Positions 9,680 through 55,307 of a stretch of DNA of 64,000 bases are shown here, piece after piece (positions within the stretch are counted from its first letter, which is position 1; each line of letters opens with the position of its first letter). The DNA is taken from positions 4,340,001 to 4,404,000 of the forward strand of contig NZ_CP165734.1 in assembly GCF_041200145.1 (NCBI RefSeq), given 5' to 3'. The position numbers and the translations under genes are program-made. This DNA is from Bradyrhizobium sp. LLZ17 (lineage in GTDB: Bacteria; Pseudomonadota; Alphaproteobacteria; Rhizobiales; Xanthobacteraceae). Under the pieces are notes generated by a model. It made no database searches and had not been told where the DNA came from. It saw only the letters and a program-made list of their open reading frames with translations.

Positions 9680-12600
9680 ATGCAGTGTTTGCGTTGCGGT
9701 TGCCAAAATGCGGCGACAAACGAATTTTGTGAGGGGTGCGGGGCAGCTCTTGGAATTGAGTGTAATGCCTGCCACCATCTCAACCGGCCGACAGCTCGCT
9801 TTTGCGGACGGTGCAGCACTGCGCTGAACTCAAAGGCTTCACAGACTTCTAACCAGTCGTGGCAGCACGTCCTGACCGCATTGAATGCCAAGGGTGGAGA
9901 GCGAAAGCGCCTCACAATCCTCTTTGCGGACATCCGCAATTCAACCGGCCTCATCGACACTCTGGGCGATCCCGAGTTGGGCGTTAAACGTCTTCAGCCC
10001 GTTCTGGATATAATGAAGGAAGCCGTTACCCGCTATGAGGGTGTAGTTAACAAGTGGCAGGGCGATGGGGTTATGGCCATCTTCGGTGCCCCTCAGCCGC
10101 ATGAGGATCACGCTGTTCGCGGGTGCCTCGCTGCGCTTGCCATGCAGGACGGGTTAACTCGTCTCGGCGACCCGGATCTGCAGATCCGAGTAGGCGTTCA
10201 TACCGGCGAAGTCGTGGTCCAAACGATAGAGCACGACATCTACCAGACCTATGACGCCGCGGGACCCAATGTGCACCTCGCAAACCGGCTGGAACAGCTG
10301 GCCGATGCAGGAGTCATCCTAGTGTCCAAGGAGACCTACACCGCGGCTCGGCAGTTTATCGAAGCCGAGCCGTTAGGTCCACGTACGCTGCGCGGCATCA
10401 CCAACCCGACCGAGGTTTTCAAGGTGAGAGGGCTGCAGCACGCTCCCTCCAGTGGGGTTTTCCGCAGCGGGATCAGGTTGAGTCCGCTGACGGGACGAAC
10501 CGATGAGTTCAAAAGCCTTCTTGATGAGCTTGAGAGCACCATCAGGGGCGAGGGTCATGTCGTCGGTGTGGTCGGAGAGGCTGGCATCGGCAAGAGTCGC
10601 CTTTGTTTCGAGTTCGCCGAGAATTGTCGCGGCAGGGACATCCGGGTCTACGAGGCGCGCGTGCTGGCGCACGGCCGCGCAACGCCGTTCCAGCCAGTTT
10701 TGGAATTGATGCGAGATTACTTCGGTTTACGGTTCAAGCAGGCTGCGGATGTTTCACGCCGTATGGTGCAAGACCAGTTGACCGCCCTGCCAGTCTCCGA
10801 GCAGCTAACCCCCATACTCTTAGAGTTCCTTGGCCTCGCCGATACGCAGCGGCCGGCGGAAAAGCACGATCCAAAGACTAGGAAGACCCAGCTCCTCGAC
10901 TTTGTGAGATTATTGCCGCACTCCCCCCGCCAACCTGTCTCCGTCGTTATCGTCGAGGACCTGCATTGGATCGACGCGGCGAGCGAAGAGTTCATCGAAG
11001 CGCTAGCGGACGCCGTCGTAGGTACCACGACCCTGTTGGTGGTGAACTTTAGGCCGGGTTTCTCGGCGCCCCTGACGCAGCGATCGCATTATCGGCAGAT
11101 CAACATGCGGCCTCTGTCCCCTAGCCAGGCAGCGGTTCTGGTCCAGGATCACGTCGGTGGCGATACGTCGCTCGCGTTGCTCGGTCGTAACATCGTCGAG
11201 CGTGCACAAGGTAATCCTTTCTTTCTCGAGGAATTGATCAAGGCGCTCGTCGAGCGAGGCGACTTCGAAGGCGAGCGAGGATCTTATCGGCTGAAAGGCG
11301 GCCTCGATCGCATTCCGCTCCCTTCGACAGTGCAAGCCGTCGTCGCAGCCCGCATCGATCGTCTGGAAGAGAAAGCAAAGAAAGTACTGGAGATAGCTTC
11401 GGTAGTTGGCCGTGAGATTCCAATGTCAGTTCTTGATGGGGTTGCGGGGTTGGAGCAGGCCGACTTGTCAGAAGCGTTTCAGCATCTAAGGCAAGCTGAG
11501 CTGATTTACGATGTGCCACCTTTTGAACGGCGGGTTCTTGCCTTTAGGCATCCACTAATCCAGGAGGTCGCGTACCGATCACTCTTGCAAGAACGCCGTT
11601 CTGACCTTCATTCAAGGGTCGCTAAAGCCATCGAAATTATTTTCAGGGATCGGGCGGAACAGATGGCCTCTCTCTTGGCGTACCACCTGGAACACGCGGG
11701 CGAAAACCTTAAGGCAGCGCAACAGAACATGCGCTACGCCGTTTGGGTCGGGACGAACGACACAAGCCAGGCTCTTAGAAGCTGGAAGAAAGTTCGTGAG
11801 TTGCTTTCCGGTTTGCCCTCATCTCAATCCGTAGACTATTTGAAAATGATGGCCTCTGGTCAAATTGTAAACTTTTCTTGGCGGGAGGGCGTTCCTGCCC
11901 AGGAAGCGCTGCTCTATTTCGACGAAGCCAAGCAGTTGGCGCTAGCTTTAGGGGACCTGAGAGCAAATGCGCTCATTCACGCTGCGTACGGCCGCAATCT
12001 CGCGAATGGCGGTTCAGCTGACGAGTACGTAAAAAAGGTGCTCGAAGCAAAAACGATGGCGGATAAGGGCAGCGACGTCAGCGTTCAAATCGCGCTCAAA
12101 GCTGTTCTTTGTCATGCGCTCCGAACTTCGGGCAAAATGTCCGAGGCGCTTCAGATGAACATTGAAGCTATGGAGAAGGCGCACGAGATTGGCAAGTTCG
12201 ACCGCCAAACGCTAGGCTTCGACGTTGATATGTGGCTGATCGCGATGCGCGGCCAAACGCTGGTTATGCTTGGCCGATCCGATGAAGCCCGTCCATTTCT
12301 GGATCGCATCCTTAGCCTGGAGAGCAGTAAAATAGATCCTCTTCATCACGTCATTCCGAGCATAGCGTATGTGGATCTTGCTTGGGCCGAGGGAAATGCA
12401 GCTCTCGCACAGGAGCACGCTGACCGGGCGTTTTCCATCGCGTCCAGAACGGGCAATCCCTATCTTCGGGTCTATGCCCAGGGGTGTCGCGGACTATCGC
12501 ACATGGTTGCCGGGAGATTCACTTCAGCGATCGAGGACTTAGCTGAGGCGCTCCGCTTTGCACGATCGCGAAGGGCTGGCCTAGAAAACGAACCTCGGCT

Positions 12601-12898
12601 TTTGGCAGATCTGGCCAATGCATACAGGCTGAATGGCGACGCAGTGAGGGCCTCCGAGACTGTGAGCGAAGCCATAGCAATGACCACACAGCGTCACACT
12701 CGCATTCCCGAATGCCTGGCTCGTCTCGTTAGTGGACAGCTCTTGCTGGAATCAACCAATGACGATGAGAAAGTAGAGGGAGCCAAAGAACTGGATCGGG
12801 CAAGAGCGTTGATGCGAGAAACTGGAGCCGCGCTGTTCGAACGATTGATTAACGTCGACATAGCGCAGGCCACGGGCCGTTCGGTGCGCTTGTCTTGA
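9680..12898 (+). CDS. zinc-ribbon, class III cyclase, ATPase and TPR signalling protein
   Basis: A 1072-residue multidomain protein. Residues 3-50 are two zinc ribbons (CLRCGCQN..FCEGC and CNACHHL..FCGRC). From about 70 comes a class III adenylate/guanylate cyclase domain with FADIRNS and NKWQGDGVMAIFG supplying the metal-binding Asp residues. At about 298 the Walker A GEAGIGKS and later VVIVEDLHWID (Walker B) mark an AAA_16/STAND-type ATPase. The C-terminal third is helical, with TPR-like repeats. Such proteins are thought to couple ligand or partner sensing to cyclic nucleotide synthesis. A TTG lies directly before the ATG; the ATG is used. Confidence 0.85.
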   Translation: MQCLRCGCQNAATNEFCEGCGAALGIECNACHHLNRPTARFCGRCSTALNSKASQTSNQSWQHVLTALNAKGGERKRLTILFADIRNSTGLIDTLGDPELGVKRLQPVLDIMKEAVTRYEGVVNKWQGDGVMAIFGAPQPHEDHAVRGCLAALAMQDGLTRLGDPDLQIRVGVHTGEVVVQTIEHDIYQTYDAAGPNVHLANRLEQLADAGVILVSKETYTAARQFIEAEPLGPRTLRGITNPTEVFKVRGLQHAPSSGVFRSGIRLSPLTGRTDEFKSLLDELESTIRGEGHVVGVVGEAGIGKSRLCFEFAENCRGRDIRVYEARVLAHGRATPFQPVLELMRDYFGLRFKQAADVSRRMVQDQLTALPVSEQLTPILLEFLGLADTQRPAEKHDPKTRKTQLLDFVRLLPHSPRQPVSVVIVEDLHWIDAASEEFIEALADAVVGTTTLLVVNFRPGFSAPLTQRSHYRQINMRPLSPSQAAVLVQDHVGGDTSLALLGRNIVERAQGNPFFLEELIKALVERGDFEGERGSYRLKGGLDRIPLPSTVQAVVAARIDRLEEKAKKVLEIASVVGREIPMSVLDGVAGLEQADLSEAFQHLRQAELIYDVPPFERRVLAFRHPLIQEVAYRSLLQERRSDLHSRVAKAIEIIFRDRAEQMASLLAYHLEHAGENLKAAQQNMRYAVWVGTNDTSQALRSWKKVRELLSGLPSSQSVDYLKMMASGQIVNFSWREGVPAQEALLYFDEAKQLALALGDLRANALIHAAYGRNLANGGSADEYVKKVLEAKTMADKGSDVSVQIALKAVLCHALRTSGKMSEALQMNIEAMEKAHEIGKFDRQTLGFDVDMWLIAMRGQTLVMLGRSDEARPFLDRILSLESSKIDPLHHVIPSIAYVDLAWAEGNAALAQEHADRAFSIASRTGNPYLRVYAQGCRGLSHMVAGRFTSAIEDLAEALRFARSRRAGLENEPRLLADLANAYRLNGDAVRASETVSEAIAMTTQRHTRIPECLARLVSGQLLLESTNDDEKVEGAKELDRARALMRETGAALFERLINVDIAQATGRSVRLS

Positions 12899-13093
12899 TG
12901 GTTTCGGGCCGTTCTGCGAGGTCGGCGCTGCTAGCTCCCAAGGGGATTACGAAAGACAAGAACGGAAGCCATGCGTGACCTCAAGCCAACGCCACACACA
13001 TCGGCCTACAACTCCATTGGACACGTTCTGAACTTTGTATTACGACTGGCACTTTCAATTGTTGAAACCATTTCAAGCAAAGAGGAGGGGAAG

Positions 13094-13702
13094 ATGGGGG
13101 CTCTAATACAGACCAAAGGCACCCAGCGTTTGTTGCAGTGGTTCAATGCCAAATGTTTCGACAAAAACAGTTTGCCTCATACCCAGAAAGCGATCGCAGG
13201 AGACGGCGCGCTATATAGCCTCTTTTCAACCCCCGCGGGCAATGCCCCTGTGATCCAGCAGATCTGCAACAATGCAACAGGCAAATCGGTTTTCTTGCCG
13301 CCCTATCATCCTGCTCACAAGAACCTGTTGACCCGCTGGGACTACTTTCTCGGATATGTTCTTCAACCCACCAACCACGAATTGCTTCGGACTTATCTTT
13401 GGAACGCCATCAATAACGGCGTAAATAGAAACGGCGATCCTTACATTGCCATCGTTGTTGATTCCGTTGAAGGTACGACACAGACGATCTTGCAATCCGA
13501 TGAGTATCTGTTGAAGCCGAGCGATCCTGATAACAAGGCGCTGGATCGTTCTACAGCTTTTTCTCATATTACTTTGGTAACCCAAGCAATGTCGCCGCAA
13601 GTGCCGGTGGCTCTCGATCCCCAATTCCAGGCCTCGCTTAGGAAAAGGCGAGGGAGCACCAAGGGCAAGAACGCTAAGAAAGCAAAGAAGGCCAAAGCCT
13701 AA
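13094..13702 (+). CDS. hypothetical protein with basic Lys/Ala tail
   Basis: A 202-residue soluble protein of unknown function. The start at 13094 follows a strong GGAGGGG ribosome site; the frame is open back to 12971 but without conserved features. The centre is neutral and mixed alpha/beta in composition; the end (RKRRGSTKGKNAKKAKKAKA) is strongly basic and may bind nucleic acid. It stands alone on the plus strand behind the cyclase gene. Confidence 0.55.
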   Translation: MGALIQTKGTQRLLQWFNAKCFDKNSLPHTQKAIAGDGALYSLFSTPAGNAPVIQQICNNATGKSVFLPPYHPAHKNLLTRWDYFLGYVLQPTNHELLRTYLWNAINNGVNRNGDPYIAIVVDSVEGTTQTILQSDEYLLKPSDPDNKALDRSTAFSHITLVTQAMSPQVPVALDPQFQASLRKRRGSTKGKNAKKAKKAKA

Positions 13703-14341
13703 GAGCGTAACAACAAAAATGCGCTCGCTTGTGCGTCTCAACGACGTCAAAACTAATTAGGCTGTCGGTGGCGTTCGCCACGGTCGCTCTTTTGGCGCCT
13801 CGTCAGCACACAAGGCCCCGTGTCCGATTTGGGTCCTTCGAAAAGGAGAGTGGTCGAGCTATTAAGCGTGCGCAGTCCGGATCGCCGTCGTCGGAGATGC
13901 ATTCGGCCCCGGCCGCAACATTGGTCAACGCGTGAAGATCGCCAATGATGAGCGCAATTTCGATCCGAAGGACTTTCAGACGCGTTCTTAAACTATAGGT
14001 AATCCCAGTAAATCCGAAACCGGCGTGAATGACCGAGTGACGACCAAACCGTGACCTCATTGCACGGGCAATCGCGGAAACTGGCTCGGGACAGACCGAG
14101 TATCCTGGAACATGCGACCGCCAGAAAGTTGCCCGCCCCGGAGCCACTTCAGGCTCCAAATTGTCCCGGGTCGCACCGAACGGGCGCGCAAGCGCCGCAA
14201 CAATCGCGGGGCACTGCCAGCACATCTGCGCAGTCTCACGCCGGTCACGAACCGTGACGCGACCTGTAAGGTTCGAACGGACGTTCCGATACGTCTAACC
14301 AAATCCTCGCTGTAAACATGAAAGTTGGCAGGACGCGCGAA
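13703..14341. other. no supported gene
   Basis: About 640 bases without a convincing gene. A minus-strand frame (13803-14225) contains a protein-like stretch (GFGFTGITYSLRTRLKVLRI) but no recognisable family and no ribosome site, so it is left uncalled. Confidence 0.4.
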
Positions 14342-14854
14342 CTATCTTCGTCCACCTGCGCGACGATTTGTGGGTACTGCAGAGGATTCCCGAATGTCAT
14401 CTTTGATCAGCTGGCAAATCTGGTTGGGCAAAATGGCATTCAGCACTCGAATATAAGCGATCGCATTTTTTTGGCAGAAATCATCAAGCGCTTTGCTGAG
14501 GGCAGGACTCCCGCCAGTGTTATAGGCGCTGCGAATTTTGTTGATCTGCAGCCAGTCTGCACTCGTAAGGCTTGCACCGTCAGAGACCGAAACAGGATGA
14601 TATTTAGGACCCACCGCTAACCTCCGCCGACGCCCGCATGCCAGCAGGGGCTCGCGTCGCTCTCGTTCAGCCAAAGCAGTGCCTCGCGCGCTTCCAAAAA
14701 AGTGATCTCGCTCCTGCGCCGGCCCGATTGGACGACCGTCGGTGAGATAAAGGAGAAATCCGCATTCAAGCCGAAATAAAACCTCGTGCTCAGTGCACTC
14801 GACCAGAGTGTCAGCGTTGATGGAGTCAATCTTCCTGGAATGAAGCATCTGCAT
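14342..14854 (-). CDS. hypothetical protein following PilZ relic
   Basis: A 170-residue frame beginning directly after the stop codon of the PilZ relic, with GGAGAGG upstream. The first half has VECTEHEVLFRLECGFLLYL; the second has SADWLQINKIRSAYN and AIAYIRVLNAILPNQIC. No family recognised. The Arg-rich middle may mark a second decayed junction, so the intactness of the gene is uncertain. Confidence 0.4.
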   Translation of the reverse strand: MQMLHSRKIDSINADTLVECTEHEVLFRLECGFLLYLTDGRPIGPAQERDHFFGSARGTALAERERREPLLACGRRRRLAVGPKYHPVSVSDGASLTSADWLQINKIRSAYNTGGSPALSKALDDFCQKNAIAYIRVLNAILPNQICQLIKDDIRESSAVPTNRRAGGRR

Positions 14855-40476: not shown

Positions 40477-41403
40477 GTGGCCCCGCGCGCCAACTGGAAA
40501 GGCTTCCTGCGTCTGTCCCTGGTGACCTGCCCGGTCGCGCTCTATCCGGCGACCTCCGAGTCCGAGAAGATCAGCTTCAACCAGCTCAATCGGCAGACCG
40601 GTCATCGCATCAAGTACCTGAAGGTCGACGCCGACACGGGCGACGAGGTGCCCAACGAGGACATCGTCAAGGGTTACCAGCTCGAGAAGGACCAGTTCAT
40701 CGAGGTGACGAAGGAGGAGCTCGAGGAGATCGCGCTGGAATCCACGCGCACCATCGAGATCGACGAGTTCGTTGACAAGTCCGACATCGACCCGCGCTAC
40801 CTGATCCGCCCCTACTACATCCGGCCAGACGGCAAGGTCGGCCACGACGCCTTTGCCGTCATCCGCGAGACGATTCGCGAGATGAACAAGGTCGCGATCG
40901 GGAGCGTCGTGCTGACCAACCGCGAGCACATCATTGGGCTAGAGCCATTGGACAAGGGCCTCGTCGGCACGCTGCTGCGCTACCCTTACGAGGTGCGGAG
41001 CGAGCAGGAGTATTTCGACGAGATCCAGGACGTGAAGGTGACGAAGGACATGCTCGATCTCGCGAAGCACATCGTCAACCAGAAGGCCGGGCGGTTCGAG
41101 CCCGAAAAGTTCGAAGACCACTACGAGACCGCGCTGATCGACCTGATCAACAAGAAGCGCGCCGGCAAGCCGATCACGCCGAAGGAGCGGCCTGCCGCCG
41201 GCAAAGTCGTCGATCTGATGGAGGCGCTGCGGCGGAGCGTCGGTCAGGAGCAAGCGCCGGCGAAGGCTGGTAAGCCTTCCAAGAAGCCGCGCAAGGCTGG
41301 TGCGGGGCAGAAGGAGATGCTGATGCCGATCGAGGGCAAGAAGCCGGTGAGGGAGGCCGCGGCGAAGAAGCCCGCCTCCACCAGATCGCGCAGATCGGCC
41401 TGA
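40477..41403 (+). CDS. ku: Ku DNA end-binding protein
   Basis: A 308-residue bacterial Ku homologue, which binds DNA double-strand ends as a homodimer and recruits LigD for non-homologous end joining. The core (about 1-260) carries ANWKGFLRLSLVTCPVALYP, NQLNRQTGHRIKYLKVDADT and VLTNREHIIGLEPLDKGLVG. The C-terminal tail is Lys/Ala-rich (KAGKPSKKPRKAGAGQKEML), as in rhizobial Ku proteins with DNA-binding tails. It starts with GTG; GGAG lies 11 bases upstream. In this window only broken ligase pieces are found (20-21 kb). Confidence 0.92.
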   Translation: MAPRANWKGFLRLSLVTCPVALYPATSESEKISFNQLNRQTGHRIKYLKVDADTGDEVPNEDIVKGYQLEKDQFIEVTKEELEEIALESTRTIEIDEFVDKSDIDPRYLIRPYYIRPDGKVGHDAFAVIRETIREMNKVAIGSVVLTNREHIIGLEPLDKGLVGTLLRYPYEVRSEQEYFDEIQDVKVTKDMLDLAKHIVNQKAGRFEPEKFEDHYETALIDLINKKRAGKPITPKERPAAGKVVDLMEALRRSVGQEQAPAKAGKPSKKPRKAGAGQKEMLMPIEGKKPVREAAAKKPASTRSRRSA

Positions 41404-45855: not shown

Positions 45856-46212
45856 ATGCGGCGCTCCTCTGTGATCGGAATACTCCCGCTACTGACCTTG
45901 CTTGCCGGAAGGGAGGTTTCCGCCCACGCCTTTCTCGATCACGCCGATCCGCGCGTGGGCAACAAGGTCGCGACGCCGCCTCGCGAAGTGACGTTATTCT
46001 TTACGCAGAAGCTGGAGGGAGCGTTCAGCAATGTCACGGTGACCAACGCGGCCGGTCAGCGCGTCGATACAGGTAAGCCGCGCATCAGCGGCAGCCAGAT
46101 GTCGGTCTCGCTGCGTCCGGGCGGCAGCGGCACCTATCATGTCACGTGGCACGTGCTCTCAGTCGATACCCACACGACGGACGGCAATTTTACGTTCGAG
46201 GTCGGGCAGTGA
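45856..46212 (+). CDS. copC: CopC-type copper-binding protein
   Basis: A 118-residue periplasmic protein. After a leader (1-22) it begins with His (AHAFLDHADPRVG), the usual N-terminal Cu(II) ligand of CopC, and ends with TYHVTWHVLSVDTHTTDGNF, supplying further His/Asp ligands. It has the CopC/YobA length. It probably passes copper to CopD, encoded 25 bases later. Confidence 0.9.
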   Translation: MRRSSVIGILPLLTLLAGREVSAHAFLDHADPRVGNKVATPPREVTLFFTQKLEGAFSNVTVTNAAGQRVDTGKPRISGSQMSVSLRPGGSGTYHVTWHVLSVDTHTTDGNFTFEVGQ

Positions 46213-46236
46213 GGGGTTGGGGGGAAGAGTGATGCG

Positions 46237-47193
46237 ATGAGCTGGTTTGGGGCAGAGATTGACGTCCTGATGATCGCGACCCGGACGGTTCATTTCGCCG
46301 CCTCAGCGATTACGGCTGGCGCATTGATCTTTCGCGGCCTCGTCGCTGAACCCGCTTTGCGCGCAGAGCCGCACGCAAACGCGCTGGTCGAAAGGCAGCT
46401 CCGCGGTGCTGCCTGGATCGGGATTGCCGTCGTCGTCGTCTCCGGGCTTGCCTGGGTGCTGTTGTTGACGATGTCGTTGAGCGGAGAGGGCGTTGGCGAA
46501 GCCGTGATCTCGGGAGCACTCCGCGACGTACTTCAATTAACGCAATTTGGATGGGTGTCGCAGGTCCGTCTGGCGCTCGCGATCATGCTGTCGATCTGTT
46601 TGGCTTTCGAACGCTCGGGGTTGTGGCGCTTGCTTCCACTGGGGGCGGCGGCGTCCCTTGTTGCTTCCATCGCCTGGACCGGACATGCCGCCTCGACGCC
46701 CTCCGGGTTGGGGTATCTGCACCTGGCCAGTGATGCGCTACATCTTATCGCCGCCGCGGCCTGGTTTGGCGGTCTCATACCGCTGGTGCTGCTGCTTCGT
46801 TCGCTTAGATGTCATCGGGGTTGCTTCTCGCTGAAGCTTGACGCTGTCAGGCGGTTTTCGACTCTTGCCATTATCAGCGTCGCAACGTTGACCCTGTCCG
46901 GGTTCGTCAACGCATGGATTCTGGTTGGTTCGTTCCGCGGGCTCGTCATGACCGATTATGGGCAGCTCCTGATCTTAAAGCTTTCCGTCTTCGCTGTGAT
47001 GCTCGTGTTCGCCGCCATCAACCGGCTCGTCCTGACGCCGCAGCTCGCTTCGCTCTCCGATGAGGCGCGGCAAGGGCGTACGCTCCGCGCGCTCTCGCGC
47101 AATACATTGCTCGAGATTGCTTTGGGACTCTCGATCTTCTCTATGGTCGGTGTGCTGGGCATGCAGCATCCTGCCGCCCACCTGGTGAAATAG
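46237..47193 (+). CDS. copD: CopD-family copper transporter
   Basis: A 318-residue membrane protein with about eight helices: ATRTVHFAASAITAGALIFR, AAWIGIAVVVVSGLAWVLLL, LGYLHLASDALHLIAAAAWF GGL and a final NTLLEIALGLSIFSMVGVLG. His residues in the helices (VHFAAS, LHLASDALHL) fit copper transfer. Ordered after CopC, it probably imports periplasmic copper. The GGGGGGAAGAG ribosome site precedes it. Confidence 0.88.
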   Translation: MSWFGAEIDVLMIATRTVHFAASAITAGALIFRGLVAEPALRAEPHANALVERQLRGAAWIGIAVVVVSGLAWVLLLTMSLSGEGVGEAVISGALRDVLQLTQFGWVSQVRLALAIMLSICLAFERSGLWRLLPLGAAASLVASIAWTGHAASTPSGLGYLHLASDALHLIAAAAWFGGLIPLVLLLRSLRCHRGCFSLKLDAVRRFSTLAIISVATLTLSGFVNAWILVGSFRGLVMTDYGQLLILKLSVFAVMLVFAAINRLVLTPQLASLSDEARQGRTLRALSRNTLLEIALGLSIFSMVGVLGMQHPAAHLVK

Positions 47194-47344
47194 GACGACG
47201 CGATAGCCTGATGATCAAGAGGCCCATGACGTCCGGTTCCGACCGACCCGGACCCCCAGCCATATGGCGTTTGCGCCGCTACTGAGGCTAGAACAGAGGC
47301 CAAGCGAGCCTCGACTGGCAACGTTTGACCCATGAGTAGACGGC

Positions 47345-47740: not shown

Positions 47741-48465
47741 CTAGTTAGCGGCTGGCGCTGGGTCTTCCTTGACGCCGCGGGCGACGATTCTGAGCGCCCC
47801 GTCCGCCAGCGGCCGCTGCAGCTTCAGCGCCTCGTCCGCAGGCGCGGTCATCCAGGCCTCCACCTCTTCAGGCGTGGTCAAGATCACGGGCATCGCCTTC
47901 GGGTGGATGGCGCCGACCTCGGCATTCGGCTCCGTCGTCAGGAACGCATAGAGATCGCTCGTGGTCTCGCCCTCCCTCACCTTCCTGACCGACGTCCAGT
48001 TCGTCCAGATGCCGGCGAAGCAGAGCAGCGGGCGGGTTTCGTCCCGCGCGAACCAGATGTCGCCGCCTTCGGCCTTGTTGAATTCGCTGAACGAGTTGAA
48101 CGGGACGACGCAGCGGTGCTCGGACCCAGCCATCGCGTCCAGTGCTTGGACTTCACGTTGCGGATGTTGGTGGTGCCGCCGTCCGGCTCCATCCGGAGCA
48201 ATTCTTTGAAATCGACGGTCTTGCCTTTGGCCTGTAGCTTCTCGGCGCGCTTCTTGGTGGCGTCCATCAGCGCCTTCGACGACGACGGCATGCCCCAACG
48301 CGCCGTCGCGAGCTCGCGGCCCTCGGCGCCGGTCCGGACGATCGGCGCCTTGTAGTCCGGAAACACGCCGGGCATCGGCGCCAGATTGCCGACGTACCGG
48401 TTGACGACGCGGAACAGCGCGCTGATGGCGGCCTGGTTGGTGGTGATCGAATAGAGATTGCACAT
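47741..48465 (-). pseudogene. SRAP (SOS response-associated) peptidase, frameshifted
   Basis: The 5' part reads MCNLYSITTNQAAISALFRV, VGNLAPMPGVFPDYKAPIVR and GTTNIRNVKSKHWTRWLG. In the next frame follow EHRCVVPFNSFSEFNKAEGG and FAGIWTNWTSVRKVREGETT with EWxxxx-x-HPKAMPVIL to the end. One C is missing near 48122-48126 (GGTCC-GAGCAC), the only break. The catalytic Cys2, and the conserved Asn, Glu and His-Pro region are preserved. SRAP proteins crosslink to abasic sites in single-stranded DNA. It may be a recent mutation or a sequencing error. Confidence 0.8.
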
Positions 48466-48467
48466 CG

Positions 48468-48914
48468 TCAGGTCTCCGGAGCGGCCTGGCGAGGGCGCTG
48501 TGCCAGCTGTAGCAGCGTCGCAGGCGGCCGGCGATTGGCCTTGGCGCACTTGCTGCAACGCAGCCGGCTCACCAGGTCGTGGACGAAAGTCGTGGGCGGG
48601 TGGGGCAGGGCCGCGAGGTCGACGTCCCGCTTCGTCTTGCAACGCGAACACTCGATCTCGAGCCATGGGTGGCCGCCGTTGATCGCCTGGTCGACCGTGG
48701 GGGACGGGTCGATCGGGCCTCCGTCGGCCCACATCCGCTCGTTCCAGGCTTCGCAGAGCAGCTTGTCGGCCGTCCGGATCAGGGACTCGCCCTCGGCCCG
48801 GAGCTCCGCCGACCGTTGCGCCAGCACCGTCGTCATGGCGCGCGCCTTGCCGAGCTCCTTGTTGAGGGCGGATCGCAGCCCTCCGGAGAGGGGCGTCGGA
48901 TGCTTCCGCGCCAT
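48468..48914 (-). CDS. zinc-finger-like hypothetical protein
   Basis: A 148-residue soluble protein with an N-terminal helical region and a cysteine set (IECSRCKTKRDVDLAALPHP ... RLRCSKCAKANRR), a two-CxxC zinc ribbon. It ends two bases before the SRAP start and is probably co-transcribed. A related protein is next upstream. Function unknown. Confidence 0.65.
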   Translation of the reverse strand: MARKHPTPLSGGLRSALNKELGKARAMTTVLAQRSAELRAEGESLIRTADKLLCEAWNERMWADGGPIDPSPTVDQAINGGHPWLEIECSRCKTKRDVDLAALPHPPTTFVHDLVSRLRCSKCAKANRRPPATLLQLAQRPRQAAPET

Positions 48915-48923
48915 TGCCGGCGC

Positions 48924-49346
48924 TCAGCCGAACGACGGCCAGCACCCGTCGTCTTCGTGGCTGCCGGTCCGCTGCTGGCAGGTCGCGTCGAGAATCCGTT
49001 GCCCGACGTCCTTCCACACGGCATCCCGACCGTAGAGGCGGACGGCGTCGACGGTCTGAATTTCGACGATGCGACCGCAGCGGCTGCAGGAGACCCGCGA
49101 CACGTGTCGGCCGATTTCGGCCAGCGTGCGCGACTGGATGGGCCGACCGGCCTGTCTGGCGTCGGCGCCCGCGTCCCGTAGCACTGCTTCCCAGTATTCG
49201 GGCGGCATCGCGTCGGCTTGGCCAGCCGAGGACGTTGCGGGCGCGTTTTTGCCGACCGGAGACTGCCCGGCCAGTTTTTCCATCTCTTTTCTGCCCGGCA
49301 TGCGCCAGCTTGCAGGTCGATCTGCTGCCATCCCCAATGAGAACAT
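48924..49346 (-). CDS. zinc-finger-like hypothetical protein
   Basis: A 140-residue protein. The centre carries VSCSRCGRIVEIQTVDAVRL, then VGQRILDATCQQRTGSHEDD and GCWPSFG: a CxxC plus a C-terminal Cys pair. The ending is characteristic of a small rhizobial family of unknown function. It lies nine bases before 48914 on the same strand, completing a three-gene run with the SRAP gene. Confidence 0.65.
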   Translation of the reverse strand: MFSLGMAADRPASWRMPGRKEMEKLAGQSPVGKNAPATSSAGQADAMPPEYWEAVLRDAGADARQAGRPIQSRTLAEIGRHVSRVSCSRCGRIVEIQTVDAVRLYGRDAVWKDVGQRILDATCQQRTGSHEDDGCWPSFG

Positions 49347-49486
49347 AACACGAACATAGAGTCTAGTCAGACTTCAATGGCGGGGCTGGGGATTTCGTGC
49401 ACGGAAGGGCGACCGTCGCGTGCATCTGCGAGCCCGCGCCACTAAATGGTGATTGACGAAATTGCGTGGGCAGGACCGGGAATTTC

Positions 49487-50167
49487 ATGTCGAAGAAGGG
49501 CGGATCGCAGAAGCTGAAGGAGCAGAACCGAAGACAGCTCTGGCTGATCATCGCCGCAAATGCCGTCGGGTTCTATGGGGCGTGTCAGTGGTCGACGTTC
49601 GAACTGTCCGGGATCAAGGCGGCACTTACGGGTGCTGCCAACCTCCTGCCTGTAGGCCTCACCGTCGTGGTCACCACCATCGCAAACGGTCTCCTGAACT
49701 CGGCGACGAAGGAGCGTCTGGTGTTTCTGCGGTGGAGCGACGTTCTGCCCGGACACCGCGCCTTCAGCGTCCACGCGCAGGCCGATCCCCGGGTAGACTT
49801 CACCCGGCTGCAGCGCGCTTGCGGCAATAAGGTGCCGAGCGATCCCAAGGACCAAAACAGCCTCTGGTATCGATTCTATCTAGAGGTTCAGGACGTCCCC
49901 GCGGTCATGCAGGTGCACCGCGACTATCTCCTGCTGCGCGACTATACGGGTCTGGCCGCGCTGTTCCTGATCGGGTTCGGCATCGCGGCGCTGTTCCTCG
50001 TCGCGCCGTGGAAGGCGATCGGCGTTTACCTCGGCATTTTGCTTTTCCAGCTGATCGTCGTCAGACACGCCGCCGCGACCTATGGCGTCCGGTTCGTCTG
50101 CACGGTGTTGGCGCAGAAGGCCGGAAAGCCGACGTCTTCTAGCGCCGCCAAAAAATCACCCGCATGA
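49487..50167 (+). CDS. four-helix membrane protein convergent with the E2-E1-JAB gene
   Basis: A 226-residue protein with four hydrophobic helices (about 18-36, 48-70, 154-173, 176-193), a basic N-terminus (MSKKGGSQKLKEQNRRQ) and a ~75-residue soluble segment between helices 2 and 3. The ATG at 49487 follows a weak CGGGAA site. Its last 29 bases overlap the 3' end of the E2-E1-JAB gene antisense. Two-pair membrane layouts of this kind occur in predicted pore-type effectors, but I recognise no family. Linkage to the neighbouring system is suggested only by overlap. Confidence 0.65.
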   Translation: MSKKGGSQKLKEQNRRQLWLIIAANAVGFYGACQWSTFELSGIKAALTGAANLLPVGLTVVVTTIANGLLNSATKERLVFLRWSDVLPGHRAFSVHAQADPRVDFTRLQRACGNKVPSDPKDQNSLWYRFYLEVQDVPAVMQVHRDYLLLRDYTGLAALFLIGFGIAALFLVAPWKAIGVYLGILLFQLIVVRHAAATYGVRFVCTVLAQKAGKPTSSSAAKKSPA

Positions 50168-52544
50168 AGCGGGGCCGGCGTCGCGGCGGATCGATCACGA
50201 CCGGCGGGCTCGTCGACTCGAAGAGGTGAGGCCGGATCTCCTCCGGCGTCACGATGGTCACCAGAGTAGGCTTGTCGACGCGGTCGAGAACTGATCGCAA
50301 GCCGATGACCGCGGTCTTGTCCGTATCGCTGAGATCCGATCCGCCCGCGGGATGCGTGTGCCACTCGCCGACGTAGGTCAGCAGACCGCCGGTCCGGCGC
50401 TCGATCCGGGCGAGAGCCTCTGGCAGCTTCTCCGTGCCCCGTTCGAAGACCCAGGGCGTGCCGCGGCTGTCGGGCGGGGCCGGCACCAAGCGAGTCACGT
50501 AGATCGTCTTCATGGTCGCGGCCACCCTCCCGACCAGGATGCCGCCGGTCTCGCTCGGACTGTGTCGCCGCATCAATCCCAACATCTCCTCCGCGACAGC
50601 CGCCGCGATCCGGATCTGCCATCCGTAGTCGGCGCCGAGCACGATCGTGGGCTTGACGGGCCGCGCGCTCGCGCGAGCGTCACCTTCCTCGCCTAGGAAG
50701 CTAAGGTTGACGAGGCCCTCCGTCCGCGCTGGACCGCCCTTGGCCAAATAGGGCCGCAGCCGGCGGGTCACCGCCGCGGCGTGGAACGACACCACCTCAT
50801 CGGCCAGCCGCATGGTTGCCGAACTGCAACTCAATCCGACCTGGATGTCCTCGAGGCCGCCGGACCCGACGCGATCGTCCCGCGTCGACCTGACCTCCTC
50901 CAGCCAGGCAGCGACCGCGTCGTCCTCCATCGCGGAGTCGTAGATCAGCGCCTGGAGATCGTCGATCCGGGGATTGCGCCCGGTCCCCTCGATCGACAAC
51001 AGGCCGAGCATGCCGCGGTGGGCGATCTCGGCGCGGTGAACGCGCAGCGTGTCCGGAAGCGCAGCGTCGCGTAGCCCGTTGAACACGATATTGGACGCCG
51101 TCATGTCGACCAGGTTGGCGTAACCGTCGAAGAAGGCGGGGCTGCGCAGCCTGGAAAGAGCGGACGTGTTTTTGGCTTCGATGGGAAGGTCGCCTTGACC
51201 GGGATAGAGCCCGACCAGTTCGTCCTTGAGAGCTTCCGCCTTTGACTTACCCACGGTGCGGCCGCCCAACGCGTGGCGGACCAGATTGTGAGGCGCGATT
51301 TTCGCGTTGTCGGCGATCTTCAGGGCGACGCTGCCGCTACGGGCGAGATGGCTCGCCACCTTCGAGCCCAGCGCGCCGGCGCCGAACACGACCGTCGGCT
51401 CAGCGACACGGTCGGCGGGCAGCGCCGAGATCTCGCGGGCGAATTCGGGCGTCAGCGGCGTGCGATGATCGGCGAACCGGAGGCGCGCCGCCGGATCCCA
51501 TGCGCCGTCCTTCGGCCAGTGATCTCCGCCGGCCAGTATCAGGAAGTTCAGCAGTTCGACGTCCGACGTCCTGCCCAGAACCTGCTGGGGGCGCCTGACG
51601 GCAAGCACGATCGGCACGCCGCTGAACAGCTGCAGGCCGTTCGCTAGATACGACGTCAGAGCGGCCCGCAACTGAAAACCGAGCTCCTCCGCCCAGACCT
51701 CGAGGTCGCCGAGCGTCTCCGGTAAGTCGCCGAAATACCGGCTGCAGACATCGGTTTCCGGCGTCCATAGCAGCAGGCCGAAGAGGCGGCGCTGGAATTG
51801 CCCCTTGTATTCCGGCTTCTCGGCGAACTCGTTCAGGAGGCCGGCGATGACCTGGTGCGCCTCGAGAGTGTCGTCGGTGACGAAGGCTGCCTGCCTGACG
51901 GTATATTCCTTCTCGCCGATCTCGGCTTTGCTCTCGTCGTCGAGCAGATCGTAAGCGACGAGGGCGCTGCCGGCGGTTCCGCCCTGCGCGGCACGGAGCC
52001 CTGCCGCTTTCGCGATGAACACCTCCGGCGGGTATACGAACGTGCCGGACGTGTCGGGCGAACGGGTGGGCTCGAAGGCGTCCCCTTCGGGGATCAACCG
52101 ATTGCGCGCGGCATCGCGCAGCCAACCGCGCGCGCGTTCGACCAGGTCGCTCACCGTGTGCTCCGCGAACCAGGCGTCGATCGAACCGCGATGTAGGCAG
52201 AGCGACGCCGGCAGCTTGGGGCCCGTCGGATTGAGGTGGGGGAAGGCCTTCGAGAAGTCGCGACGGTCCGAATAGACCCTCGGCGCAAGATAGGGAAACG
52301 ACCTGATGGGAAACAGCAGCAGCAGCGGCTCGCGCTTGCGGATGTCGACCCCGCCGACGGGCCCCCGCCCGGGCAGTTCGACGTCGACCGCGAGGGGCAC
52401 GGCGACGTAGTTGTCGTTCCACTTCAGGACCGGAGCGGCCTGAGCGGGGTACTTGGCGCGCAATTCCGCCACCGCCGATCGGATCGCCGGCGACAGGCTA
52501 TCTTCGTCCTCCTTTTCCTGTGGAGTGGAGTGCAGTTCATCCAT
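50139..52544 (-). CDS. E2-E1-JAB triple fusion protein (ubiquitin-pathway-like)
   Basis: An 801-residue protein joining three ubiquitin-type enzymes. N-terminal E2-like domain (about 15-155): SFPYLAPRVY, FPHLNPTGPKLPASLCLHRG with predicted catalytic Cys116. Central ThiF/E1 domain (about 380-600): nucleotide loop GAGALG 388-393, NLVRH 420-424, and a candidate thioester Cys573 in GLSCSSATMR. C-terminal JAB/MPN+ domain (about 645-770): Glu665 (SETGGILVG) and HTH-x7-S-x-x-D = His729, His731, Ser739, Asp742, a complete metalloprotease site. Expected chemistry: adenylate a C-terminal glycine, form thioesters, conjugate it, and cleave it. It overlaps the preceding gene by 8 bases (ATGGATGA), giving translational coupling. 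E2-E1-JAB fusions with metallo-beta-lactamase partners are, to my knowledge, among those described by Iyer, Burroughs and Aravind; their biology is little known. Confidence 0.88.
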   Translation of the reverse strand: MDELHSTPQEKEDEDSLSPAIRSAVAELRAKYPAQAAPVLKWNDNYVAVPLAVDVELPGRGPVGGVDIRKREPLLLLFPIRSFPYLAPRVYSDRRDFSKAFPHLNPTGPKLPASLCLHRGSIDAWFAEHTVSDLVERARGWLRDAARNRLIPEGDAFEPTRSPDTSGTFVYPPEVFIAKAAGLRAAQGGTAGSALVAYDLLDDESKAEIGEKEYTVRQAAFVTDDTLEAHQVIAGLLNEFAEKPEYKGQFQRRLFGLLLWTPETDVCSRYFGDLPETLGDLEVWAEELGFQLRAALTSYLANGLQLFSGVPIVLAVRRPQQVLGRTSDVELLNFLILAGGDHWPKDGAWDPAARLRFADHRTPLTPEFAREISALPADRVAEPTVVFGAGALGSKVASHLARSGSVALKIADNAKIAPHNLVRHALGGRTVGKSKAEALKDELVGLYPGQGDLPIEAKNTSALSRLRSPAFFDGYANLVDMTASNIVFNGLRDAALPDTLRVHRAEIAHRGMLGLLSIEGTGRNPRIDDLQALIYDSAMEDDAVAAWLEEVRSTRDDRVGSGGLEDIQVGLSCSSATMRLADEVVSFHAAAVTRRLRPYLAKGGPARTEGLVNLSFLGEEGDARASARPVKPTIVLGADYGWQIRIAAAVAEEMLGLMRRHSPSETGGILVGRVAATMKTIYVTRLVPAPPDSRGTPWVFERGTEKLPEALARIERRTGGLLTYVGEWHTHPAGGSDLSDTDKTAVIGLRSVLDRVDKPTLVTIVTPEEIRPHLFESTSPPVVIDPPRRRPRFMRVIFWRR

Positions 52545-53679
52545 AGGTCTGCGGCGTGCTCGCGACCTTTTTGACGGTGTCGTCGACGTGATCGAGGTCC
52601 TCTGGATCCAGCAGCACCGGCCCGTTTTCGCTCATTTCGAACGTGGTCGGCAGCGCGCGCTTTTGGTCTCCAACCTCAGCAAGGCTGATGAAATTCTCCT
52701 CGCCGACGACGTCTTCGTACTCCTCCTTGGCCGCAAAATGTGGAGGATTGTCGTCGTCGTCCTTGATCGGCTTGCACGATGCGATCACACGCGCGCCGTC
52801 TAGTCCCTTGCCGAGGATGGCGAGCGAGTCCTCGGCAGGCACCTTGTTGTACTTGTACTCTTCCTCGCTGAAGAAGGTCCACGAACAGTGGTGTGGCGCG
52901 AGGAACAGATCGAACGCCAGCTTGTCGTCGTCGCTGAGTTCCAGAATCTTCGACCAGATCGCGGCACCGGCGTCGCCGCCGAACATCGCGAGGCCGGCGT
53001 TTTTGGTTCCGCCTACGTCGAAGCAGGCCTGCAGCACCACGCTGGTGTCGTTGCGATCGGCCAGCTTGTCGTCGACCTCCTTGCGGAACGGCGCATGGAC
53101 GAAGAAGCGGAAGTCCTTTTTCGTCTTGCGGTCGATGACGTCGATGTAGTTGCCCGGCGTAATGACGAGATCGCCGAGCCCCTTGTAGGCCGGGTTATTG
53201 CTGTGACCGACGACGCGGATCCGGTTGCCGGCATCGTTGCGCACGGACGACTTCGCGAGATGGAGATCGATGCGGCGTTGCGCTTCCTTCTTGAACGCCT
53301 TCGCCCACTTCGACAGCTCGCCCTCATGGTTGGCGAAGATTCGGTGGGTGAACCAGAGCTCGTCGATGAGTATCAGGTCTTCCTTGGAGTGCTTCACCGT
53401 GTATTTGGACGGGTCGCCCGTGTAGAACATCGTGTCGAAGCCGCGGCAGTGATCCTGATCAGCATGGGTCAGGATAAACACGTCAACGTGGGGAATCTTG
53501 CCGTCGAGCTTCTTGCCGAAATCGAGTAGATGCTGATGAACGTCGTAGCGGCTGGGGTCGTCCTCGTCGCTGGCTTCCTGAGTGGTGTTGCAGTCGATAA
53601 TGATCTGGGTGTTGTCGCTGAGGGTGATCAGCGAGCAATCGCCGTTGCCGACGGGGAAATAGGTGATACGCGGGTCCAT
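52537..53679 (-). CDS. metallo-beta-lactamase-fold protein, partner of the E2-E1-JAB protein
   Basis: A 380-residue cytoplasmic protein of the ComEC/Rec2-like metallo-beta-lactamase branch. YFPVGNGDCSLITL begins the fold, THADQDHCRG gives the metal motif HxDxDH (His72, Asp74, Asp76, His77), FGGDAG gives Asp236 and APHHCS gives His263. These are hydrolases of nucleotides, nucleic acids or other phosphodiesters in many relatives. The ATG at 53679 has GGGAAGA upstream and replaces a 67-codon longer frame. The protein ends in STPQTYG; its last residue is Gly380, and the stop overlaps the E1 gene's start. A C-terminal glycine is what E1-like enzymes adenylate. Confidence 0.88.
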   Translation of the reverse strand: MDPRITYFPVGNGDCSLITLSDNTQIIIDCNTTQEASDEDDPSRYDVHQHLLDFGKKLDGKIPHVDVFILTHADQDHCRGFDTMFYTGDPSKYTVKHSKEDLILIDELWFTHRIFANHEGELSKWAKAFKKEAQRRIDLHLAKSSVRNDAGNRIRVVGHSNNPAYKGLGDLVITPGNYIDVIDRKTKKDFRFFVHAPFRKEVDDKLADRNDTSVVLQACFDVGGTKNAGLAMFGGDAGAAIWSKILELSDDDKLAFDLFLAPHHCSWTFFSEEEYKYNKVPAEDSLAILGKGLDGARVIASCKPIKDDDDNPPHFAAKEEYEDVVGEENFISLAEVGDQKRALPTTFEMSENGPVLLDPEDLDHVDDTVKKVASTPQTYG

Positions 53680-53939
53680 TGCATCTTCCCGAATCTTGTA
53701 GGAATAAATAAAACTGGCGGTTGAGCACGTGGTGGCGACGCGTCGGTTCGACAAGGTTCGGTGAATGCACTTTCCTTCGGGAAATCGACTTTTTTTCGTT
53801 GACTCCCGTTCCGCTCGATCGCCCGCGCCGATTTGATTCGGCGGCCGGTGGCTGTCGGCAATCGAAGCGCTCGATGGCACGGGCGATGATGAAGCCGTCC
53901 TGGGGCTCGATTTCAGCAGGATATTATCGGAGAGATCTC

Positions 53940-55073
53940 ATGAAGCGTCTCGCGATCTTCCTCGACGGTACCTGGAACACGTTGAACAACAACACGAACG
54001 TCTGGAGGTTGAAGTCCCTGACCGCCGAGACCGCCGATCAACGCGTCTACTATTCGCAGGGGGTCGGCACCCGGCGCGGTGAATCGGCGCGAGGCGGCGT
54101 CACCGGGTGGGGCATCGACGACGAGATCATCGAAGCCTACACGTGGCTCATCCAGAATTTCGACGACGGTGACCAGATCTTCATCTTCGGCTTCAGTCGC
54201 GGCGCGTACACGGCGCGCAGCCTGTCTGGGCTGATCTGCAAGTGCGGTGTTATCAAGCTTGGCGCGCCGCTCTCCATCGAGCAGCTTTACGCGCGGTATC
54301 GGATCTACGATGCACCGACGATCAGGTCGCTGCTGGGCAAGCCGCTGCCGGACGGTGTCCCGCTCGAAGAGCGCTGGCTGACGACCTATTCGCGACCCAC
54401 GAATGTCAAGTTCGTCGGCGTGTGGGACACCGTCGGTTCGCTCGGCCTTCCCGTGTGGAGGATGGCGGACAAGGTCCGCAAATATCGGTTTCTCGACACA
54501 CATCTGCGGCTCGACAACGAGTACGCCTTCCATGCGCTGGCGCTGGACGAACACCGAAAGAATTTCGAACCCACGTTCTGGACCAGGACGGATAGGGCCG
54601 GGCACGAAGGAGCCGCCGAACGGCAAATCGACAAGGTCGAGCAGCGTTGGTTCGTAGGCGCGCATGCCAACGTCGGCGGCGGTTACGCGAGCGATCCCCT
54701 GGCGCAGCGACCGCTGAAGTGGCTAATGGAGAAGGCGGCCAGTTTGGGGCTGGTCTTGCGCAACGAAGTCTTTCTCGACCTCTCGCAGGTCGCGCCGCCG
54801 GTCACGGATTCGTACCGCGAGTTCGCTTGGGGCCTTTATCGCTTCGTCTCGCGACCATTCTACCGGCCCGTCGGCTTGCCGCCGGACAAGGGAACGCAGG
54901 CCACGACCTCGCGCATCAACGAGTCCGTTGACGGTTCGGTCTTCGACCGTTGGCGTGCTGATGGGTCGTACCGCCCGGAGAACCTGGCGTCGTGGGCGAA
55001 GACGAAGGGCGTCGATCCCGCGAAGCTCGTCGGCGCCGTCATGACCACCGATCCCAAGGTCGCCGCCTTATGA
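53940..55073 (+). CDS. DUF2235 alpha/beta hydrolase (Tle1/phospholipase-like)
   Basis: A 377-residue protein of the DUF2235 family, whose members include the type VI secretion lipase effector Tle1. The start reads KRLAIFLDGTWNTLNNNTNV; the nucleophile elbow is GFSRG (Ser86), the acid probably Asp163 (VGVWDTVGS) and the base His242 (VGAHANVGGGY). No signal peptide is seen. It runs divergent from the metallo-beta-lactamase gene, starting 260 bases from it, with GGAGAG before the ATG. It may be a membrane-damaging effector of the locus, or an independent gene. Confidence 0.82.
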   Translation: MKRLAIFLDGTWNTLNNNTNVWRLKSLTAETADQRVYYSQGVGTRRGESARGGVTGWGIDDEIIEAYTWLIQNFDDGDQIFIFGFSRGAYTARSLSGLICKCGVIKLGAPLSIEQLYARYRIYDAPTIRSLLGKPLPDGVPLEERWLTTYSRPTNVKFVGVWDTVGSLGLPVWRMADKVRKYRFLDTHLRLDNEYAFHALALDEHRKNFEPTFWTRTDRAGHEGAAERQIDKVEQRWFVGAHANVGGGYASDPLAQRPLKWLMEKAASLGLVLRNEVFLDLSQVAPPVTDSYREFAWGLYRFVSRPFYRPVGLPPDKGTQATTSRINESVDGSVFDRWRADGSYRPENLASWAKTKGVDPAKLVGAVMTTDPKVAAL

Positions 55074-55230: not shown

Positions 55231-55307
55231 TGGCGATCCCGGCATGACTCGAACATGCGACCTACGGTTTAGGAAACCGTCGCTCTATCCGGCTGAGCTA
55301 CGGGACC
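55231..55307 (-). tRNA. tRNA-Arg (anticodon CCT)
   Basis: A complete 77-base cloverleaf on the minus strand. Acceptor stem GGTCCCG pairs with CGGGATC (one G-T), then discriminator G and an encoded CCA. D-arm GCTCAGCCGGATAGAGC; anticodon stem ACGGT/ACCGT around TTCCTAA, giving anticodon CCT; T-loop TTCGAGT. The 3' end points towards lower coordinates, i.e. towards the accessory region, as expected for an integration site. I saw no second copy of the 3' end in the window. Confidence 0.95.

Follow-up and report, generated by a model that had tools for sequence, protein, structure and literature searches.

The C-terminal glycine of a metallo-β-lactamase-fold enzyme as the probable conjugation site in a 6A-MBL operon of Bradyrhizobium sp. 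LLZ17

A 64,000-nucleotide stretch of the Bradyrhizobium sp. LLZ17 genome (assembly GCF_041200145.1, contig NZ_CP165734.1, positions 4,340,001 to 4,404,000; hereafter the window) carries an operon in which a gene for a metallo-β-lactamase (MBL)-fold protein precedes a gene for a single polypeptide with E2 (ubiquitin-conjugating), E1 (ubiquitin-activating), and JAB (isopeptidase) modules. The operon is a real and well-conserved member of a named and known defence type, 6A-MBL. Two features are new as far as the searched literature shows, namely a Gly residue at the C-terminus of the MBL and an exchangeable third gene whose product acts on membranes. Judged from sequence comparison, the role of the missing "ubiquitin" in the system is probably filled by the MBL, conjugated via its last Gly. 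Loci fetched for comparison with the window operon are labelled with L-numbers (in the style of L001).

Core pair of the operon

The positions of the operon components are listed in Table 1. Two NCBIfam models, both equivalogs labelled "anti-phage 6A-MBL system", identify the core genes. NF058523 (6A-MBL_cap2_3) gives 546.5 bits on the E2-E1-JAB protein against a cut-off of 320, and NF058524 (6A-MBL_enzyme) gives 363.5 bits on the MBL against a cut-off of 220. The Prok-E2_A, ThiF, and Prok-JAB scores on the 801-residue protein all exceed the curated Pfam cut-offs. The 8-bp overlap that joins the MBL gene to the downstream E2-E1-JAB gene and the length and coordinates of the fused protein are as the first-pass annotation of this DNA had given them, and the profile scores bear out its domain assignments.

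Table 1. Features of the 6A-MBL operon and its surroundings in the window
Feature	Position	Strand	Remarks
MBL-fold protein, 6A-MBL enzyme, probable conjugated protein	52537..53679	-	380 amino acids (aa); ATG 53679, stop 52537
MBL metal motif H72-x-D-x-D-H77 (HADQDH)	53449..53466	-	alignment of 34
Codon of MBL C-terminal Gly380, predicted conjugation site	52540..52542	-	aligned Gly 33/34
E2-E1-JAB triple-module protein, 6A-MBL cap2_3	50139..52544	-	801 aa; NCBIfam NF058523 and Pfam
E2 domain, Pfam Prok-E2_A, residues 59-179, Cys116 and His103	52008..52370	-	3.3e-18
E1 adenylation core, ThiF match, residues 385-449	51198..51392	-	Pfam 4.2e-11
Codon of E1 catalytic Cys573	50826-50828	-	downstream of ThiF match; 33/34 homologues
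JAB/JAMM isopeptidase domain, residues 648-746	50307..50603	-	Prok-JAB 5.8e-9
Third component, 226 aa, 2-3 predicted membrane helices, family TM-C	49487..50167	+	homologues beside 6A pairs
DUF2235 (Tle1-like phospholipase), possible accessory part	53940..55073	+	Pfam PF09994 1.5e-71 on longer open reading frame (ORF)
tRNA-Arg(CCT)	55231-55307	-	possible insertion boundary

The same arrangement appears as row 6a in Iyer et al. (2006), where, according to excerpts of that article, a triple-module protein lies beside a specialised MBL, usually as two genes (PMC1779556). In the window, one polypeptide carries E2, ThiF, and JAB in that order beside the MBL, and the two core genes show no difference from type 6a. 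A wholly new system is ruled out, since NCBIfam and Iyer et al. already name the type, and the fused arrangement, which the first-pass annotation had called apparently much less studied, is not new. No paper matched "6A-MBL" as a name, and the anti-phage label of the family comes from its NCBIfam name; nor was a paper found that explains the mechanism of 6A-MBL or type 6a. For the C-terminal Gly and the third gene, no describing paper was found in the open-licence literature without bioRxiv, which does not prove absence.

Conservation was evaluated in an alignment of 34 of 39 loci, filtered by ORF length and score limits. Both Cys116 and His103 of the E2 module are kept in all 34 homologues, and the E2 assignment is based on the Pfam profile together with these conserved residues. 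Cys573 in E1 and Glu665 and His729 in the JAMM site are each kept in 33 homologues, and His731, Ser739, and Asp742 in 32. The mismatching rows at the E1 and JAMM residues are L057, which has a separate annotated JAB gene, and L002, where the ORF is frameshifted within JAB. All the catalytic residues that the first-pass annotation had named (those above other than His103) are therefore kept in 32-34 of 34 homologues. The E2, ThiF, and JAB domains recur in 6/6 aligned members by Pfam, and the best solved relative of the E1 part is Cap2 (7to3, 1e-21, profile against PDB).

The metal site of the MBL is equally well kept, with Asp74, Asp76, His77, Asp236, and His263 in 34/34 sequences and His72 in 33/34 (L072 deviates). 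The nearest solved structure to the MBL model is the ComEC DNase domain (9ic4); only the overall fold was used from this weak model. The window MBL has both the fold and the metal site that characterize ComEC-type MBL nucleases. The ratios of nonsynonymous to synonymous substitution rates (dN/dS) against the nearest relative, L133, are 0.02 for the MBL and 0.16 for E2-E1-JAB, indicating purifying selection on both genes. Chance or decayed ORFs are ruled out by the domain scores and these ratios.

C-terminal Gly of the MBL

Gly380 is the last residue of the window MBL, and Gly is found at this position in 33 of the 34 aligned MBLs, preceded by a variable linker. The single MBL without it, in L072, is at a contig end, and E2-E1-JAB is absent from that contig. 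No residue follows the Gly in some MBLs, whereas 1-6 extra residues follow in others, and 8 in L135 and L136 counting the aligned HG. In the simplest reading, these short tails are what the JAB module would remove. The Gly lies outside NF058524, since that model spans MBL residues 7-353.

The terminus can be written as [YHFAQ]G followed by 0-6 residues. This pattern is found in 29 of 30 non-redundant MBLs versus 18 of 165 neighbouring ORFs of at least 150 aa (Fisher 3.8e-21), and an exact terminal G in 13/30 versus 10/165. Among the pairs fetched after the pattern had been fixed, 21/21 match it, 15 of them with an exact terminal G. The survey was extended to 61 loci, from which 5 incomplete ones (L069, L072, L078, L080, and L148) were excluded to give 56 pairs of MBL and E2-E1-JAB. 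The pattern is present in 54 of these (39/41 at 70% redundancy). The MBL genes of L073 and L079, which do not match, are frameshifted, and their final fragments terminate in PRAG and TRAG, respectively.

Among the controls, none of 34 E2-E1-JAB proteins terminates in G, and a terminal G occurs in 1/18 unlinked MBL homologues (L034) and in 0/8 second MBLs of the first set. The closest MBL relatives without an E2-E1-JAB partner role, called PDC-M48B-type here after the PADLOC candidates, lie beside the same membrane proteins, and 0/8 strong ones terminate in Gly. A second MBL-fold gene was observed near the 6A pair in L053, L054, L060, L063, L074, L075, L087, and L088; the strong ones are never Gly-terminal.

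A precedent exists in type II CBASS (cyclic oligonucleotide-based antiphage signalling system). According to excerpts of one report, Cap2 becomes linked by a thioester to the C-terminal Gly of cGAS and conjugates it, and the C-terminal Gly/Ala of type II cyclases is conserved solely where Cap2 and Cap3 occur (PMC10097602). The conserved C-terminal Gly, this precedent, and the closeness of the E1 part to Cap2 suggest, as the simplest reading, that the MBL is the protein conjugated by the E2-E1 modules.

Third component

The window TM-C gene is convergent with E2-E1-JAB and overlaps its 3′ end by 29 bp. Its dN/dS is 0.18 against L133, with a second value of 0.09. Homologues adjoin 6A pairs in L002, L059, L066, L087-L090, L133, L135, and L136. 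They follow E2-E1-JAB on the same strand in L059, L066, L087, L090, L135, and L136, and are convergent, as in the window, in L002 and L133. In the first set of loci, the gene families found downstream of E2-E1-JAB are patatin phospholipases (12 loci), TM-B (12), and TM-C (4). TM-B proteins have 3-4 predicted membrane helices and TM-C proteins 2-4; no Pfam family was found above cut-off in either. Weak PADLOC matches of two membrane third genes to Csx27 of type VI-B CRISPR were also observed (L076:9416-10039, 0.0036; L055:8440-9159, 0.00096).

Across the 56 pairs, the third gene is a patatin in 20, TM-B in 14, TM-C in 9, TM-B plus TM-C in 1, and patatin plus TM-C in 1; another ORF with at least 2 predicted helices is found in 8 and none in 3. 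A patatin or one of the two small membrane families is encoded with the pair in 46/56 loci. L005, from an Acidimicrobiaceae metagenome-assembled genome and first scored as none, should be noted: a single 1131-aa ORF (11116-14508, +) contains E2, E1, JAB, and patatin as a natural fusion, and its upstream MBL terminates in GFG plus two residues. In most loci the operon includes a gene for a membrane protein or a phospholipase, and there, at least, the system is not the two-gene pair that the first-pass annotation described. The recurring exchangeable gene recasts a two-gene curiosity as a modular defence operon, in which it is likely the killing arm.

Among co-directional third genes, 36/40 have their start between -350 and +70 relative to the stop of E2-E1-JAB (the large negative distances being partly due to the choice of the longest ORF), and 11 overlap by exactly 4 bp. 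A patatin is 7.9 kb away in L135 and on the opposite strand in L150. On an MBL tree made by a quick method with the 25 C-terminal residues trimmed from every row, the family label switches at least 9 times over 44 labelled rows, and the patatin label does so five or more times on starred branches (L079 is unlabelled despite its patatin, and L005 was labelled none before the fusion was noticed). The third gene is thus exchanged, in the manner of CBASS effectors.

A search with TM-C returned 11 loci (L086-L096), 4 of them with a 6A pair. L086, L093, L094, and L096 have a PDC-M48B-type MBL and no E2-E1-JAB, L091 has only weak MBL-like matches, and L092 and L095 have neither MBL nor E2-E1-JAB. A PDC-M48B-type MBL adjoining TM-C or TM-B without E2-E1-JAB is seen in L086, L094, L096, and L133:17285-19292. 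From such loci, the MBL and the membrane protein seem to be the older core, to which E2-E1-JAB and the C-terminal Gly were added, this simpler combination possibly being a defence pair that gave rise to the 6A type.

Proposed mechanism and alternatives

We lean slightly towards the reading that the 6A-MBL operon is a type II CBASS-like defence in which the cyclase is replaced by an MBL-fold enzyme. The domains, catalytic residues, C-terminal Gly, and interchangeable membrane-acting third gene found above would fit the following mechanism. The E1 module would adenylate the C-terminal Gly of the MBL, and the E2 module would move the MBL onto a target. The JAB module may trim the short tails of some MBLs and may also reverse conjugation. 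Upon infection, the conjugated, and thereby licensed, MBL would drive the membrane-acting partner, which in the window would be the small membrane protein encoded at 49487-50167 and in other loci a patatin phospholipase or another membrane protein. The activated partner would then halt the infected cell. The more specific proposal, that the system has no ubiquitin-fold protein, that a ComEC-like metal nuclease is the tag with JAB trimming its tails, and that conjugation licenses exchangeable membrane killers, has in our judgement an even chance of being correct.

Several observations weigh against this mechanism or weaken its support. The MBL model is weak (mean predicted local distance difference test score of 59, from 6 sequences). 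The terminal pattern was derived from the first set of loci, and the later 21 pairs alone are the fair test of it. A terminal G also occurs in the weak second MBL of L088 (30 bits) and in the unlinked homologue L034. As for the third component, the window gene is convergent and not co-transcribed with the pair; L002 and L133 are alike in this respect, and all three are close relatives. No third gene was recognised in L049 or L138, TM-C occurs without an MBL in the fetched stretches of L092 and L095, and L087-L090 came from the TM-C-based search, inflating the TM-C count.

The likeness to ComEC would also suit a role of the MBL as the effector, namely a DNase kept inactive and activated by conjugation or by JAB cleavage, by analogy with the trypsin-like proteases that switch on HamM-type MBL nucleases; the membrane gene would then be an accessory, an anchor, or a second effector. 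A fold in common with ComEC proves no function, however, and neither the C-terminal Gly nor the presence of one of three membrane-acting families in 46/56 loci is explained in this way, so that we regard an effector role as possible but rather improbable. Alternatively, the membrane effector may be opened by a small nucleotide signal which the MBL makes or removes, in the way of the CBASS cyclases, with conjugation boosting the output of the MBL. The CBASS-like layout, with patatin or membrane effectors swapped behind a conserved enzyme, is consistent with such a signal, as is the existence of MBLs with TM-C or TM-B in the absence of E2-E1-JAB (L086, L094, L096, and L133). A nucleotide-binding domain was not found in TM-B or TM-C, though, and the match of the patatins to the PADLOC CBASS phospholipase is weak (L050, 0.0012) or nil (L080 and L079), which makes a nucleotide signal unlikely.

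The relationship of the E1 core to ThiF and MoeB raises the question of whether an unlinked host ubiquitin-like protein of the ThiS/MoaD type is the modifier, with the MBL as its processor and another role for the Gly. The distribution of this residue argues against a host modifier, since it is found in MBLs paired with E2-E1-JAB but in 0/8 PDC-M48B-type relatives, and a Gly with a short tail is the expected look of a JAB-processed modifier; we consider this explanation highly improbable.

No obvious ubiquitin has gone with the E2-E1-JAB machinery of type 6a since its description in 2006. If the MBL is conjugated through its C-terminus, enzymes of one more fold, unrelated to that of the CBASS cyclases, would be substrates of bacterial ubiquitin-like conjugation. 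A general rule would then be that the tag is any defence enzyme that has gained a C-terminal Gly, and conjugation would be an add-on acquired by defence enzymes of unrelated folds, such as cyclases and MBLs, that evolve this residue.

Comparison with known systems

While type 6a is described, in the excerpts cited above, as usually two genes, the window and most of the compared loci add the membrane-acting third gene. The operon resembles type II CBASS in its Cap2-like E2-E1, its Cap3-like JAB, the C-terminal Gly on the partner enzyme, the exchangeable membrane-acting effectors, and the WYL-type regulators present in 6A loci. It differs in having an MBL in place of the CD-NTase and a JAB module fused to E2-E1; no CD-NTase domain was found among the genes Pfam-scanned between 47.3 and 55.1 kb. 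Gly380 is thus a likeness to type II CBASS, not a sign of membership, the partner being an MBL.

Bil and Bub operons likewise contain E1, E2, and JAB parts within a defence operon, but no ubiquitin-like gene is recognised beside the 6A pair, where the MBL tail seems to fill that role. A ubiquitin-like (beta-grasp) gene was found neither among the Pfam-scanned genes nor as a recurrent cluster among neighbouring ORFs of at least 90 aa. The first-pass annotation had noted the lack of a separate ubiquitin-like gene; the C-terminus of the MBL is probably the part in question.

Trypsin-MBL modules (HamM, Avs1a, Lamassu, and DRT), as far as the excerpts of their description go (PMC12799240), also place a ComEC-like MBL upstream of a multidomain defence protein. 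The 6A partner is instead E2-E1-JAB, and Pfam did not find a trypsin-like protease in the 801-aa protein. The PADLOC PDC-M48B candidates share an MBL beside TM-C or TM-B (L086, L094, L096, and L133) and differ in the absence of both E2-E1-JAB and the C-terminal Gly (0/8).

Distribution

The order, class, and phylum counts each include the source genome, and these samples overlap. Matches above the NCBIfam cut-off are found in 8/397 order, 5/385 class, and 7/398 phylum genomes. Within the genus, 26/195 genomes, source included, match at E 1e-20, and one other genome has a 98% identical MBL. A 6A-MBL operon of the L058 type occurs on E. coli plasmids, and 29 of 5426 E. coli genomes cover at least 80% of the L058 operon stretch. 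The MBL is matched in 240 of 72,556 plasmid records, 136 of them predicted to be conjugative, and has no match among 50,697 phage records. All 15 plasmid loci fetched from the MBL match list contain E2-E1-JAB. Bacteroidota, Pseudomonadota, and Actinomycetota are among the phyla from which loci were fetched. Such a distribution is characteristic of a mobile defence locus. A core housekeeping locus, which the first-pass annotation had set beforehand as the outcome that would count against a defence system, is ruled out by the sporadic occurrence in the order, class, phylum, and genus samples.

Regulators and flanking regions

Regulators of the WYL or ImmA/helix-turn-helix (HTH) kind are found in 26/56 loci, WYL in 14 and ImmA/IrrE-type in 12 (accompanied by an HTH gene in some cases). 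In the window no such regulator was recognised. According to excerpts of the report concerned, CBASS operons are under the control of WYL regulators (PMC9122588).

The DUF2235 gene is divergent from the MBL gene, with 260 bp between them, and its start has a ribosome-binding site. Two DUF2235 matches, separated by 37 kb, are present in the source genome. A DUF2235 gene is near the pair in 7/56 loci, overlaps TM-B in L137, and lies behind the MBL/TM-C pair in L086. That it is a fixed part of the system is ruled out by this low count and by its absence from the matching block of L133, leaving it as a possible accessory.

The block common to the window and L133 spans 47781-53724. The right flank from tRNA-Arg(CCT) onward is common to the relatives L132 and L134, with homology stopping at the 3′ end of the tRNA (55231). 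Some part of the right flank matches 60/60 genus genomes; for the left flank at 45860-47200, the figure is 19/60. A two-ended island integrated at tRNA-Arg is not established: the tRNA end was not found again as an exact copy elsewhere in the genome, and an integrase was not sought systematically.

Within the block shared with L133 lies an SRAP (SOS response-associated peptidase) gene (47741-48463, -), and SRAP is also annotated near the L048 operon. A gene for the Ku DNA-end-binding protein is located at 40477-41403 (+; Pfam 1.7e-48). The G+C content of window positions 1-36000 is lower than the 0.60-0.67 found elsewhere, falling to 0.53 at 12-18 kb.
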